Of a stretch of 64,000 nt of DNA, positions 21,637 through 29,229 are shown piece after piece. The position numbers were made by a program, and so were the translations under genes. The DNA is taken from NCBI GenBank assembly GCA_001515945.1, contig LOER01000046.1:62001-126000 (forward strand). The letters are read 5' to 3'. The notes beneath the pieces were generated by a model. It was given only the letters and a program-made list of their open reading frames with translations, searched no databases and was not told where the DNA came from. Position 1 is the stretch's first letter; each line of letters starts with the position of its first letter. Source of the DNA: Desulfitibacter sp. BRH_c19 (GTDB lineage Bacteria; Bacillota; DSM-16504; Desulfitibacterales; Desulfitibacteraceae).

Positions 21637-23085
21637 TTACTTTTCTATTATTGCTATAATCTTATCCATTTCTGTTATTGTATTATTATCAACCAGATTA
21701 GGATTATCGGCTTCTAAAACCCTTCTCACCTCATCCTTATGAGCATCTAGGTATGATTTTTTACCCCTTTGCTCCCAATCTTCCCAGATATACCTATTAA
21801 AAAGTCTTGGCTGCCATATTTCTTCTCTAAAATGATCAAATGTATGCTGATGATTTAAGAAGTTATTTCCAACACCAACTTCATCGATCACATCAATTGC
21901 CAATGTTTCCTCATCTATTCTAGTTCCTCTACCCATATGACGAGCACCAGCAATATAATCATCACACATTACTAGAAAAGGTAAATAACCCGTCTTTCCC
22001 CCTTCTAGATAGCCAACATCGTGTACTAGGTTTGCCCCTGCTAATTGGCAGGTTAACAGTCCAATTCCAGCTTCAAAACCTGCTTGTGCGTCTGGAAGGG
22101 GAGCATTTACACAACCTGCTTCAGTAAAGTTTGGTATCTGATAATACTGTGACAGTTGTGTCATAATTGCATAATTCATTTGAGCATCAGGTGAACCATA
22201 TAAAGTAGCTGTGGTTCTCATATCCATAGGTGTTGCTCCACCACCAATGATGATTGGTGCTCCTTTTACATGTAACTGGGAGATTACTACACCTGCTAAA
22301 GCTTCAGCATTCATAAGGGCAATTGTCCCTGCCTTTGTAACAGGCATTGTTGCCCCAGCTACAACTCCAGGGGTATACACTACAGGTATTCCATATTCAT
22401 GGCATTTAAACATTTTGCCAATACCAACTTCAGTATGGATTAGTGGTGAAATTGGCTCTGAATATAAAACCATTAATGGACTATTTCTTAAATTGTCATA
22501 TCCCCCAACTGCTAAAGCAGCCATATCAATAATCGCTTGTGTATGCTCTGCACTATGTGCAGTAAATATTATGGGCTTAATAGTATTTGCTACCATCACC
22601 TTGAATTGATGAAGGTCATTTGTCATTTTGGGTGCATCATTTGCTATACAGTAACTCATTACAAAATCATAGTTTTCAAGTGAGTCCATTAACTTAATAG
22701 CATTTTCTACATCCTTTTGGGTTGAATATCTTCTTTTATCTGTATCCATATCAATCATATATGGCATGTCAGACCCAGTACCAAAATAACAGTTATTCTT
22801 TTCCAGATGAACCCTTCTTTGTCCTCTTCTATTGCCTAAGGTAACTTTACTTGGGGCGGTTCTAATACATTCCTCTACAAGCCAAGGGGGAATTTTAGCT
22901 ATATTATCTTTCACCAGACAACCAGCTTCTTTAAGAAGTTTTAACGCTAATGGATGATCTACCCTTGTACCTGTTCTTTGAAGAATTTCTAATGATGCTG
23001 AATGAATCCTTTCTAACTGGAATTCACTAACCCAACTCATAAATGGAGTTGTTTGTTCTGAATAATTGGAACGCATAAATGCCAT
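21637..23085 (-). CDS. MttB-family (trimethylamine methyltransferase-like) protein, non-pyrrolysine, paralogue 2
   Basis: A 482-residue TIM-barrel methyltransferase of the MttB superfamily. The reading frame has no in-frame TAG, so it lacks pyrrolysine. Known pyrrolysine-free members act on quaternary amines such as glycine betaine, proline betaine or carnitine, passing a methyl group to a corrinoid protein. Family segments include FGTGSDMPYMIDMDT, IIGGGATPMDMRTT and GCVNAPLPDAQAG. It directly follows hutH (16 bases) and shares its operon. No corrinoid protein gene is in the window. The substrate is unknown; a methylated histidine is suggested only by position. AAGGAGG precedes ATG 23085. Confidence 0.85.
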   Translation of the reverse strand: MAFMRSNYSEQTTPFMSWVSEFQLERIHSASLEILQRTGTRVDHPLALKLLKEAGCLVKDNIAKIPPWLVEECIRTAPSKVTLGNRRGQRRVHLEKNNCYFGTGSDMPYMIDMDTDKRRYSTQKDVENAIKLMDSLENYDFVMSYCIANDAPKMTNDLHQFKVMVANTIKPIIFTAHSAEHTQAIIDMAALAVGGYDNLRNSPLMVLYSEPISPLIHTEVGIGKMFKCHEYGIPVVYTPGVVAGATMPVTKAGTIALMNAEALAGVVISQLHVKGAPIIIGGGATPMDMRTTATLYGSPDAQMNYAIMTQLSQYYQIPNFTEAGCVNAPLPDAQAGFEAGIGLLTCQLAGANLVHDVGYLEGGKTGYLPFLVMCDDYIAGARHMGRGTRIDEETLAIDVIDEVGVGNNFLNHQHTFDHFREEIWQPRLFNRYIWEDWEQRGKKSYLDAHKDEVRRVLEADNPNLVDNNTITEMDKIIAIIEK

Positions 23086-23101
23086 ATGATTTTCCTCCTT
23101 A

Positions 23102-24607
23102 TTAATCTTCTAATACTTTAATTATTTTTCCTTCTTTTATTAGTTTAACAGCTTCATTAATATCAGGATAGAGCTCCCTGTCATCTCCTAGCTTAGATAC
23201 TTTCTCTCTCAGCATTTTATAGGCAGCATATGTCCTTGGAGCAGGCTTTGCTTGTCTAAAATCAATCCCTTGACAGGCACATAATAGTTCTATAGCTAAA
23301 ACATTTTGAACATTCTCTAATATGCTGCGTGCCTTTCTTGCTGCTATTGTTCCCATACTTACATGGTCTTCTTGAGAAGCAGATGTAGGTATTGAGTCAA
23401 CACTAGCAGGATGGGCTAAAACCTTGTTTTCACTTACAAGAGCGGCTGCCGTATATTGTGCAATCATGAAGCCACAATTTATACCTCCCCTTTCTGTAAG
23501 AAAAGCGGGAAGCCCTCCGCTTAACGCCGGATTAGTCAGTCTTTCCGTCCTTCTTTCGGAAATATTTGCTAGTTCAGATAAAGCTATTCCCAAAAAGTCC
23601 ATGGCAAGGGCTAGTGGTTGTCCATGAAAATTTCCACCAGATAATACATCTTCCTCCTCAGGAAATACTAGTGGATTATCTGTTACTGAATTGATTTCTG
23701 TTTCTATAACACCCTTAACATAATTTATGGCATCCTTTGACGCTCCATGAACCTGTGGCATACACCTTAGAGTATATGCATCTTGTACTCTACAATGGTC
23801 CGAGGCATGCAGGATTTTACTGCCTTCCAAAAGCTTTCTTAGGTTTTGGGCAGTTTCAATCTGGCCTAAATGGGGTCTGATTTCATGTATTCTTGGATCA
23901 AATGCAGAAACAATAGCCTCTAAAGCCTCTGCACTTAACGCTCCTGTTATGTCAGCAATTTTAGCCAGATTTAGTGCATCATATACTGCCAGAGTTCCCA
24001 AAGATGCCATTGCCTGGGTACCGTTACATAACGACAAGCCTTCTTTTGCCTTCAGTCTTACAGGTTCTATACCTGCTTTTTCCATGGCTGTCATACCTGG
24101 CATCAACTGGCCACTGTAGTATGCCTCACCTTTTCCCAATAAAACAAGAGCCATGTGGGAAAGTGGAGCCAAATCTCCACTTGCTCCGACTGAGCCTTTT
24201 TCTGGAACAACAGGATGAACTTTTTTATTTAACATTTCTAGTAATGTTTCTACTACTATAGGCCGTATTCCTGAATTACCCCTTATGAGAGAATTTGCTC
24301 TTAATAACATCATTCCCCTAACAACTTCTTCTGCTAATGGATCTCCTACACCAGCAGTATTGCAAAGTATTAAGTTTTCCTGTAACTGATCTAATTGCCC
24401 ATTGCTAATGGACATAGTGGCAAATTTACCAAAACCAGTTGTTATCCCATAGACAACTTCATTGTTAGAAACCATTTTTTCTACAAGTTGCCTTGACTTT
24501 TCCATGGGTTCATAAGCTTCAGGAGCTATAGATACTTCTTCAAAATTCCTTGCCACCTGAACAACCTTTTCTATCGTTAGGTTAGCTCCATTTATTAGAA
24601 TTGCCAT
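23102..24607 (-). CDS. hutH: Histidine ammonia-lyase-like enzyme with variant active site
   Basis: A 501-residue MIO-type lyase. The MIO triad Ala142-Ser143-Gly144 is intact, Tyr53 is present (VVYGITTGFG) and the distal Glu motif SQEDHVSMG is kept. Numbering matches the Pseudomonas putida enzyme. The notable change is at residue 83: bacterial histidine lyases have SHAAGVG or SHACGVG, here it is CNTAGVG, so His83 is Asn. His83 is a known active-site residue implicated in substrate binding. The surrounding pathway genes support release of urocanate. A relative, ergothionase, eliminates trimethylamine from ergothioneine. So histidine or an N-methylated histidine could be the substrate. Flanked on both sides by MttB-family genes. 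Confidence 0.85.
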   Translation of the reverse strand: MAILINGANLTIEKVVQVARNFEEVSIAPEAYEPMEKSRQLVEKMVSNNEVVYGITTGFGKFATMSISNGQLDQLQENLILCNTAGVGDPLAEEVVRGMMLLRANSLIRGNSGIRPIVVETLLEMLNKKVHPVVPEKGSVGASGDLAPLSHMALVLLGKGEAYYSGQLMPGMTAMEKAGIEPVRLKAKEGLSLCNGTQAMASLGTLAVYDALNLAKIADITGALSAEALEAIVSAFDPRIHEIRPHLGQIETAQNLRKLLEGSKILHASDHCRVQDAYTLRCMPQVHGASKDAINYVKGVIETEINSVTDNPLVFPEEEDVLSGGNFHGQPLALAMDFLGIALSELANISERRTERLTNPALSGGLPAFLTERGGINCGFMIAQYTAAALVSENKVLAHPASVDSIPTSASQEDHVSMGTIAARKARSILENVQNVLAIELLCACQGIDFRQAKPAPRTYAAYKMLREKVSKLGDDRELYPDINEAVKLIKEGKIIKVLED

Positions 24608-24639
24608 ACCTTTACACCCCCTAAATACTATCTTATTTT

Positions 24640-26064
24640 CTATAACTTTCGTTCTGCATCTTCTAATATTTTTATTACCTTTGTGATTATAGATTCACAT
24701 ACAGGCTCCGGTTGATGAGATTCTATAATCTCTTTAACCTTTTGATTAGCTCGCTCAAATAGTGTCAATTTCCCACTTCTTTCCCATCCTTCAAAACCTT
24801 GAAGATCACACAGTTCTGTTGACCAGCCTTTTCTAAAATTCTCTACAGTATGCTGGGTTCCCATGAAGTTTCCACCAGGACCAACCATTTTTATGGTATC
24901 TGTTCCTAAAGCCTCTCTACTTGTGTCAACTCCTTTAATCATATGCTTTACCCTATTGATAGTGTCATCACTAATCACAATCATTTCCAGAGCCCCTGTT
25001 AAACCAAACTCTAAATAAAATATATCATGCATAAGGTTGCAGCCCTGTAGAGCTCCCATAAGAGTAAACATAGTCGCTTCCATTACAGCTTGTTCATCGA
25101 CAGTCTTGGAGCTACTACACCCAGCATAGCCCCATGATGGGAAATTAAAATACCTAGCTATATCACATAGCATGCCCTGTGCAACCATAGATTCTGCAGA
25201 AGTATAAACTGATTGTAAGGTTTTCATATCAAGAGGTGTAATACCATAGCCATATACAAAAGGTGCACCTGGGTTTTTTAACTGATGAATTACTAGTCCA
25301 CTTAAGGCTTCTGTATGGGCCTGCAAGACGCTTCCGCTTACTGTCATGGGTACTGTCCCACCACTTAAACCTCCACATGCAAAATTGGTTGGTATATTTG
25401 TTTCTGCCGCTAAAAGAACCTTGGCAACTGATTCATAAGGCAACTGAAGTGGTGATGTTGGCTCGCAATACACCATGAAAAGCGGCTTGCGTTTTAAGAC
25501 CTCTCTTCCACCAACTGCTGCAGCAGCCATTTCTATTATATCTTCTAGAGTCTTATCATCCTCAGCTATTACAACCTGAGGTTTAGTACTATTTAAAAGC
25601 ATAAGAGCATATTGTTCCCGATTTATCATGTGTTTATTTACATCAACAAGGTTTCCCATTGACATTATAAAATCAATATGTGGCAAATAATCGCATACCT
25701 TTACAGCATCTTCCACATCTTTTTTAAGCCATTTTCTTCTCTCTTTTGTATATGGATCTAAATAGTTTATTGTGTCTGAACCAGTACCAAAGCTTATTTC
25801 CCATTCTTGCATAAAGATTTTAGGGTTACCATTTCTATCATACAATGTAACTCTTGAAGGAACTGTGCTAATGGACTTTTCCACCAACCCAGTAGGAATA
25901 TATACTCGGTTGCTGTTTTCAACAACACAACCCGCACTTTTTAATAATTCTAGTGCTTCATCGTGATGGACTACAACTCCAGCATCTTCTAAAATCTCAC
26001 ATGCTGAATTGTGAATTTGTTTTATTTGTTCTTGTGTTATAGCATTGACCCTACTTTTTATCAT
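24640..26064 (-). CDS. MttB-family (trimethylamine methyltransferase-like) protein, non-pyrrolysine, paralogue 1
   Basis: A 474-residue paralogue of the protein at 21637-23085 and the first gene of the hut operon. Shared blocks include FGTGSDTINYLDPYT, GYGITPLDMKT and GCSSSKTVDEQAVMEA. No in-frame TAG is present, so no pyrrolysine. The family demethylates amines onto a corrinoid protein. Being first behind a sigma-54 promoter and followed by hutH in 32 bases, it is probably needed early in use of the inducing substrate. Two diverged MttB paralogues may handle successive methyl groups or form a hetero-oligomer; this is inference. AGGAGG precedes ATG 26064. Confidence 0.85.
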   Translation of the reverse strand: MIKSRVNAITQEQIKQIHNSACEILEDAGVVVHHDEALELLKSAGCVVENSNRVYIPTGLVEKSISTVPSRVTLYDRNGNPKIFMQEWEISFGTGSDTINYLDPYTKERRKWLKKDVEDAVKVCDYLPHIDFIMSMGNLVDVNKHMINREQYALMLLNSTKPQVVIAEDDKTLEDIIEMAAAAVGGREVLKRKPLFMVYCEPTSPLQLPYESVAKVLLAAETNIPTNFACGGLSGGTVPMTVSGSVLQAHTEALSGLVIHQLKNPGAPFVYGYGITPLDMKTLQSVYTSAESMVAQGMLCDIARYFNFPSWGYAGCSSSKTVDEQAVMEATMFTLMGALQGCNLMHDIFYLEFGLTGALEMIVISDDTINRVKHMIKGVDTSREALGTDTIKMVGPGGNFMGTQHTVENFRKGWSTELCDLQGFEGWERSGKLTLFERANQKVKEIIESHQPEPVCESIITKVIKILEDAERKL

Positions 26065-27320: not shown

Positions 27321-27350
27321 TTGACAATTAACTATATCCGAATATATAAT
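27321..27350 (+). promoter_or_regulatory. Sigma-A promoter of amt-glnK
   Basis: TTGACA (27321-27326) and TATAAT (27345-27350), both perfect, are 18 bases apart. The start site near 27357 leaves room for a leader RNA of about 146 bases. Confidence 0.82.
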
Positions 27351-27362
27351 CTAAAAAACAAG

Positions 27363-27401
27363 AGCACAATGTTGTGCTACATATCAAGGACAAAGACGTC
27401 C
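27363..27401 (+). promoter_or_regulatory. ANTAR-type dual-hexaloop RNA antiterminator
   Basis: Hairpin 1 is AGCAC-[AATGTT]-GTGCT (27363-27378). Hairpin 2 is GGAC-[AAAGAC]-GTCC (27388-27401). Both loops have six bases with A at position 1 and G at position 4, the signature recognised by ANTAR-domain proteins. The 3' arm of hairpin 2 is also the 5' arm of the terminator at 27396-27446, so the two folds are mutually exclusive. Binding would allow read-through into amt. ANTAR leaders are known before nitrogen genes of clostridia; the ANTAR protein is not in the window. Confidence 0.82.
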
Positions 27402-27446
27402 ACAAATTCGGGTGAAGATGCCTGTAGATTTGTGGGCGTTTTTTTG
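27396..27446 (+). terminator. Leader terminator upstream of amt
   Basis: A 12-base-pair stem (27396-27407 with 27428-27439, one G-U pair) is followed by seven T and a further T-rich tract. It sits between promoter and gene and overlaps hairpin 2 of the ANTAR element, as expected for conditional termination. Confidence 0.88.
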
Positions 27447-27502
27447 TTTTTTAAGAGGATCCTCAACAAAAAACTTTTAAACTTTAAATGGAGGGATTAT
27501 TT

Positions 27503-28876
27503 ATGTTAAGAAATATTAGAATCATATTCATGGCTTTGCTGCTAGTTCTTTTACTATCTAGTTTTGGTGTTGCAGAAACGGGAGAAATTGATGAAACGAA
27601 AGTTGCGTTAGATACCATGTTTGTACTATTTGCCGCTTTCCTGGTGTTTTTCATGCATGCAGGCTTTACGATGCTTGAATGCGGATTTACTCAAGCAAAA
27701 AATACTGTAAATATTCTTATGAAAAATGTTTCTACTATTTCAATAGGTACTTTATGTTACTTTCTTGTAGGTTTTGGATTAATGTTTGGCTCAAGCAAAT
27801 ATGGCTTTTTTGGAAGTGACGGTTATGCTCTTGTTTTTAAAGGAGATGTTGATTTCGGAATACCTACCTTGGCTTTCTGGTTTTTTCAGGCAGTTTTTGC
27901 AGCTACAGCTGCAACTATAGTATCTGGTGCAGTAGCTGAAAGAGCTAAGTTTAGTACTTACATTCTTTTTACAATCATAATTACATCTATTATATACCCT
28001 GTGGTGGGTCACTGGACCTGGGGTGGAGGTTGGTTAGATTCATTAGGATTTGTTGATTTTGCAGGATCTACTATTGTCCACAGCGTTGGTGGTTGGGCAG
28101 CCCTTGTTGGAGCATTTCTTTTAGGACCTCGTATTGGCAAATACACAGCTTCTGGGAAGGTAAATCCTATTCCTGGTCACAATATTCCCCTTGGAACATT
28201 GGGAGTTTTATTCTTATGGTTTGGCTGGTTTGGATTTAACCCTGGAAGCACTTTAAGTCCTTTTGATCCAGATCTTGCCTTGGTTGCTGCAAACACTCTC
28301 ATTGCAGGGGCTACTGGAACAGTAAGTGCACTTTTATTTACCTGGATAAGATACAAAAAACCAGACATTACTTTAACACTAAACGGCACTCTAGCTGGTT
28401 TAGTTGGCATTACAGCAGGTGCTCAGGCTCTTTCATTCGTAGGTGCTTTATTTACTGGTATCATTGCAGGTGTTATACTTGTAGTAGCAGTTGAACTATT
28501 TGATCAAATATTAAAGATAGATGATCCGGTTGGTGCTATATCAGTTCACGGAGTATGTGGTGCTTTTGGAACAATTGCAGTAGGTTTGTTTGCTGTAGAT
28601 GGCGGCCTATTATATTCAGGTTCCTTCTCTCTTCTTGGAGTTCAAATAGTGGGTGTTCTTGCAGTTATGGCTTGGAGTATAACAGTTGCATTTATTGCAT
28701 TTAAAATTCTTGGAGCATTTATTGGATTAAGAGTATCTGAAGCAGAAGAAGTCGAGGGTCTGGATGTTAACGAGCACGGCGTTGAGGCATATAACAATCT
28801 TGTGAGTAAATCAGCATATGCAGCCGGTATTGTGCCGGATATTAGTAATCAACCAATAGTAGTTAAATCTAACTAA
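27503..28876 (+). CDS. amt: Ammonium transporter (Amt/MEP/Rh family)
   Basis: About 457 residues with an N-terminal hydrophobic signal-like segment and around eleven further membrane helices. Conserved Amt blocks include AGFTMLECGFTQAKN, FFQAVFAATAATIVSGAVAER, VHSVGGWAALVGA and the late pore-histidine block ISVHGVCGAFG. It conducts ammonium into the cell. The start is ATG 27503, with GGAGGG seven bases upstream; the earlier in-frame ATG at 27488 contains the ribosome site. It forms an operon with a PII protein 14 bases downstream, and its expression is probably set by the ANTAR leader. Confidence 0.95.
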   Translation: MLRNIRIIFMALLLVLLLSSFGVAETGEIDETKVALDTMFVLFAAFLVFFMHAGFTMLECGFTQAKNTVNILMKNVSTISIGTLCYFLVGFGLMFGSSKYGFFGSDGYALVFKGDVDFGIPTLAFWFFQAVFAATAATIVSGAVAERAKFSTYILFTIIITSIIYPVVGHWTWGGGWLDSLGFVDFAGSTIVHSVGGWAALVGAFLLGPRIGKYTASGKVNPIPGHNIPLGTLGVLFLWFGWFGFNPGSTLSPFDPDLALVAANTLIAGATGTVSALLFTWIRYKKPDITLTLNGTLAGLVGITAGAQALSFVGALFTGIIAGVILVVAVELFDQILKIDDPVGAISVHGVCGAFGTIAVGLFAVDGGLLYSGSFSLLGVQIVGVLAVMAWSITVAFIAFKILGAFIGLRVSEAEEVEGLDVNEHGVEAYNNLVSKSAYAAGIVPDISNQPIVVKSN

Positions 28877-28890
28877 GGGGTGAGATAAAA

Positions 28891-29229
28891 ATGAAAAGAA
28901 TAGATTGTATTATTCGACCTACAAAAATAGAAGATGTTAAAGAAAGTCTAAATAAGATTGGTGTTAATGGAATGACAGTTAGCCAAGTACTTGGTTATGG
29001 TATGCAAAAGGGACATAAGCATTCATATAGAGGAAATGAATATAATGTTAATCTCCTACCTAAAATAATGGTGTCTATCGTAATTGATGACGAAATGTTA
29101 GATAGTGCTATAGATAGTATAATAGAAGGCTCTAGAACAGGTGAAATTGGCGATGGAAAGATATTTATCTATAATGTTGAGGAAGCTATAAGAATTAGAA
29201 CTGGAGAAAAAGGCAAAGAAGCATTATAA
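28891..29229 (+). CDS. glnK: PII-family nitrogen regulatory protein (GlnK-like)
   Basis: A 112-residue PII protein. It begins MKRIDCIIRPTKIEDVKESL and has the T-loop with GYGMQKGHKHSYRGNEYNVN, including the Tyr that can be uridylylated in other bacteria, then GRTGEIGDGKIFI-type B-loop (here SRTGEIGDGKIFIYNVEEA). The trimer senses ATP/ADP and 2-oxoglutarate and blocks the Amt pore by inserting its T-loops. Linkage to amt is the usual arrangement. A strong terminator follows at 29235-29262. Confidence 0.95.
   Translation: MKRIDCIIRPTKIEDVKESLNKIGVNGMTVSQVLGYGMQKGHKHSYRGNEYNVNLLPKIMVSIVIDDEMLDSAIDSIIEGSRTGEIGDGKIFIYNVEEAIRIRTGEKGKEAL

Follow-up and report, generated by a model that had tools for sequence, protein, structure and literature searches.

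The window, by which we mean the whole 64,000-nt stretch of DNA analysed here, carried amt, encoding an ammonium transporter, followed by glnK, encoding a PII signalling protein, with a compact leader upstream of both genes. The original prediction had described this leader as a promoter, two hairpins (P1 and P2) whose hexaloops bear A at position 1 (A1) and G at position 4 (G4), and a terminator competing with P2, in that order, and all of these elements were found at 27321-27446. The features, as read from the sequence, were the following.

27321-27350, plus strand: sigma-70-type promoter, TTGACA (27321-27326) and TATAAT (27345-27350) with an 18-nt spacer, a 12/12 match to the consensus hexamers
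27363-27378, plus strand: hairpin P1, AGCAC-AATGTT-GTGCT, with a 5-bp stem, identified by motif scan, folding and covariance models R1 and R2 (described below), and in the congener
27388-27401, plus strand: hairpin P2, GGAC-AAAGAC-GTCC, with a 4-bp stem, identified by motif scan, folding and models R1 and R2, and identical in the congener
27392-27443, plus strand: intrinsic terminator with a T run at 27437-27443, identified by folding and terminator scan
27490-27495, plus strand: GGAGGG, the ribosome binding site of amt, whose start codon lies at 27503
27503-28876, plus strand: amt, ammonium transporter (PF00909, 5.6e-125; TIGR00836 above cut-off)
28891-29229, plus strand: glnK, PII signalling protein (PF00543, 1.2e-29)

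The P1 loop placed A1 at 27368 and G4 at 27371, the P2 loop placed them at 27392 and 27395, and a linker of 9 nt separated the two hairpins. The terminator fold reached -26.7 kcal/mol (z -7.2), and its 5' arm started within the P2 loop, at 27392. P2 and the terminator were mutually exclusive, as the terminator takes up the loop and the 3' arm of P2; when the whole leader was folded alone, P1 and the terminator formed. The ribosome binding site of amt lay outside the terminator, which argued against direct translational control and fitted control of termination.

The description of both hairpins as hexaloop hairpins stood for P2 and for the conserved reading of P1, though not for the lowest-energy form of this P1 itself. 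In isolation, P1 was most stable as a 6-bp stem capped by a tetraloop, with U6 pairing with loop A1, at -7.4 kcal/mol versus -6.5 kcal/mol for the hexaloop form, a difference of 0.9 kcal/mol. In a congener (genome G002, same genus), the P1 loop AATGTT was replaced by AATGAA, which kept A1 and G4 and lost the A1-U6 pair; since the congener loop cannot form that pair, the hexaloop reading of P1 was the conserved one.

The Amt and GlnK of the congener were 79% and 83% identical to those of the window. The transcribed leader was 92% identical, whereas identity fell to 52% ahead of the promoter and to 61% from the terminator to the start codon, and both promoter hexamers were retained while the spacer between them had diverged. 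The linker was kept, as were both hexaloops and the C-G pair that closes each of them. This retention weighs against the reading that the hexaloop hairpins are incidental and that a factor other than ANTAR, such as a different RNA-binding protein, operates an ordinary intrinsic terminator or attenuator. Such an explanation could draw on no other leader structure approaching the terminator in strength and on single A..G hexaloop hairpins being common by chance, but it was further opposed by the covariance models and the distribution of ANTAR proteins described below, and we regard it as improbable.

A shuffled 64-kb sequence contained about 1.8 pairs of A..G hexaloop hairpins at the P1-P2 spacing. 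The combination of such a pair with an overlapping terminator occurred once in the real window; the 150 shuffled windows yielded no case. A search of the window against Rfam returned no family at its gathering score. Covariance model R1 was trained on 13 dual hairpins, two of them from the own genome, and its three top-ranking sites in the 3.85-Mb genome were the leaders of amt-glnK, glnA and glutamate synthase; its scores on the amt leader were circular, as the window's own leader was in the training set. Model R2 was built from nine sequences from other genera only, with none from this genus, and ranked the same three leaders at 29.5 bits (glnA), 29.0 bits (amt) and, in third place, 21.0 bits (glutamate synthase). 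The covariance search proposed with the original prediction placed the amt leader second in the genome with a model from other genera only, and within the window that leader was the only R2 match (E 7e-05). By putting the amt and glnA leaders first, the other-genera model argued against a non-ANTAR factor. Across the 13 leaders, six of the nine base pairs changed on both sides and pairing was 100%; both figures were partly circular, because the sequences had been picked by a pairing scan.

In principle, a ligand-binding riboswitch or leader-peptide attenuator could control the same terminator without a protein; both are known to work through competing hairpins ahead of nitrogen genes. That general precedent was the point in its favor, but the lack of an Rfam family at its gathering score spoke against it, and so did the space available: about 35 nt separated the expected transcription start from the terminator, and P1, the linker and P2 nearly filled them. 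No reading frame with a ribosome site was seen within that interval, which counted against a leader peptide in particular. We consider control of this kind highly improbable.

The prediction that an ANTAR regulator would be encoded elsewhere in the genome was borne out, and a genome devoid of ANTAR proteins, which had been named as the finding that would count against the leader, was excluded. The genome encoded exactly two ANTAR domains (PF03861), both in receiver-ANTAR proteins. Their genes lay in the order ANTAR1, glutamine synthetase (GS) paralogue, ANTAR2, glnA, with the glutamate synthase genes farther on. At the aligned phospho-acceptor site of the receiver, ANTAR2 carried Asp and ANTAR1 carried Asn. 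The features of this region were the following.

C46:42458 and C46:44391, opposite strand to the leader: the two ANTAR genes, about 45 kb upstream of the leader
L003:10028-11428 (G000:C46), minus strand: GS paralogue lacking the flap glutamate ("flapless"), between the two ANTAR genes
L003:9372-9334, minus strand: candidate glnA leader, with a GATGGA loop in its P1
L003:5140-5400, minus strand: candidate leader of glutamate synthase, in which two P2-like hairpins lie in tandem, with two terminators

The distribution among relatives was broadly in keeping with such a pairing of leader and regulator. Leaders before amt were found by the models or the motif scan in G002, G003, G005 and G060; the matches in G014 and G006 were weaker. 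In G007 a leader, an ANTAR gene, amt and glnK formed one array. G042 had amt-glnK and lacked both an ANTAR protein and the motif, and this absence of the motif in an ANTAR-less relative, together with the ANTAR proteins in the genome studied, was a further point against a non-ANTAR factor. G052, which counted the other way, encoded one ANTAR protein yet had no motif before its amt. Every genome with a model match also had an ANTAR protein, but most genomes had been picked for an ANTAR protein, so that the association was biased by genome choice and no p-value is claimed. A search of the collection by Amt returned distant Amt genes from many phyla, where dual-motif scan matches were mostly chance matches inside genes; one match, in Desulfofundulus (L069), lay upstream of amt. 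In G005 (L118:2027-5830), tandem ANTAR leaders were observed, two before each of two amt genes, along with one ANTAR leader before a glutamine synthetase gene.

Taken with the leader itself, these observations make it very probable that the amt-glnK operon is under ANTAR-type transcription antitermination. RNA polymerase would start near 27357, where transcription is expected to begin. By default, with no active regulator, the nascent RNA would form the strong terminator and transcription would stop before amt. When active, an ANTAR dimer formed from one or both ANTAR proteins would bind P1 and P2 at their A1/G4 hexaloops, keep P2 folded and thereby block the terminator, allowing polymerase to enter amt and glnK. 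Default termination, a dimer on two loops, retention of P2 and read-through follow the published model, and the ANTAR mechanism has been established experimentally for EutV (PMC3369931).

The amt leader resembled EutV-type leaders, known from Enterococcus faecalis eutP and relatives (Ramesh et al. 2012, PMC3369931), in having two short A1/G4 hexaloop hairpins, a linker within 5-12 nt and a terminator overlapping P2, and in occurring in a genome that encodes a receiver-ANTAR protein. Among the E. faecalis eut leaders the linker spans 5-12 nt, and linkers of 3 and 14 nt fail (PMC3369931); the 9 nt found here lay inside that range, and both hairpins had stems of at least 3 bp and hexaloops with A1 and G4. 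The overlapping terminator, the presence of ANTAR proteins and the match to a model from other organisms likewise agreed with this class of RNA target. It differed from EutV-type systems in its operon and host, and in that the ANTAR1 receiver was without the phospho-acceptor Asp. Ramesh et al. had already reported ANTAR leader matches before ammonium-transporter and PII genes (PMC3369931). The amt leader is therefore a further case of a known class, as the original prediction had recognized. The added interest lay in a three-locus candidate regulon with named regulators and in the flapless GS beside them.

By sharing this kind of leader, amt-glnK, glnA and the glutamate synthase operon would come under the same ANTAR regulators, and their common leaders therefore predict joint induction. 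The three nitrogen-assimilation units most likely open together when nitrogen is limiting, in line with reports on NitR of Clostridium saccharobutylicum, which is held to induce GS/GOGAT genes on nitrogen limitation (review, PMC6316151). In such a regulon, RNA-level antitermination would link three processes within a single bacterium: the uptake of ammonium and the synthesis of glutamine and of glutamate. A GS-GOGAT-ANTAR cluster has also been described in C. thermocellum (Clo1313_2030, PMC4676874). As in these two systems, the receiver-ANTAR proteins were encoded with GS/GOGAT genes; unlike in them, a flapless GS paralogue separated two ANTAR genes, and amt-glnK had a leader of its own.

The other two candidate leaders made the regulon less uniform than the amt leader would suggest. 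In the glnA leader, P1 (ATAGGC-GATGGA-GCCTAT) had G1 in its loop instead of A1, and P2 (AGAGC-AAAGAC-GCTCT) was followed by an overlapping terminator. G1 loops were also present in leaders of G005; in this group of leaders, either purine may be acceptable at the first position of the loop. In the glutamate synthase leader, each P2-like hairpin ran into a terminator and there was no clear P1; the congener leader (L170:11270-11500) had the same arrangement. With no clear P1, this arrangement offered a dual-hairpin reader no evident route past the first terminator.

The GS paralogue abutted or overlapped both ANTAR reading frames, depending on the start codons chosen, and was 50% identical to the GlnA of its own genome. 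In this paralogue V replaced the flap glutamate E303 and E replaced R62, and it retained D53, E131, E133, E188, E195, H244, R297, R315, R320, E332 and R334; the roles of these active-site residues belong to the general knowledge of glutamine synthetases. A comparison of the best matches across 149 genomes gave flapless GS genes in 11 sampled genomes, all of them beside an ANTAR open reading frame, although flap-bearing GS genes were often beside one too. A fully supported branch parted flapless from flap-bearing GS across five families, in an unrooted tree with long branches. The receivers of ANTAR proteins beside flapless GS lacked the Asp in eight of the 11 genomes, which represent few independent lineages.

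The position of flapless GS beside ANTAR genes with Asp-less receivers suggested a sensor acting as a protein partner, as in AmiC-AmiR or NasS-NasT, where the gene adjoining that of the ANTAR protein encodes a sensor, itself descended from a protein of the pathway, and where AmiR has a non-phosphorylated pseudo-receiver (PMC3369936, PMC3795266). The difference is that the candidate partner here was a glutamine synthetase paralogue and not a periplasmic-binding-protein homologue. By analogy with AmiC-AmiR, we tentatively propose, with rather more doubt than confidence, that the flapless GS paralogue could be a new type of nitrogen sensor that binds an ANTAR protein and frees it in response to the glutamine or ammonium status. 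The main rival to this reading is that the paralogue ligates glutamate to other amines, as is possible by comparison with Streptomyces GlnA3, an amine ligase with Glu327 changed to Thr (PMC8998196). A literature search, with most subscription journals outside its coverage, found no paper on a flapless GS-ANTAR pair and no answer to what NitR-like ANTAR proteins sense. For that question, the flapless GS provides a concrete and testable candidate.

Two minor observations concerned the minus strand of the window. The P1 palindrome and an adjoining T-rich stretch (27378-27363) scored as terminator-like, which was probably incidental. At 21637-26064, the minus strand carried what may be a histidine ammonia-lyase-like gene, flanked by two genes resembling trimethylamine methyltransferase (MttB-like) genes.
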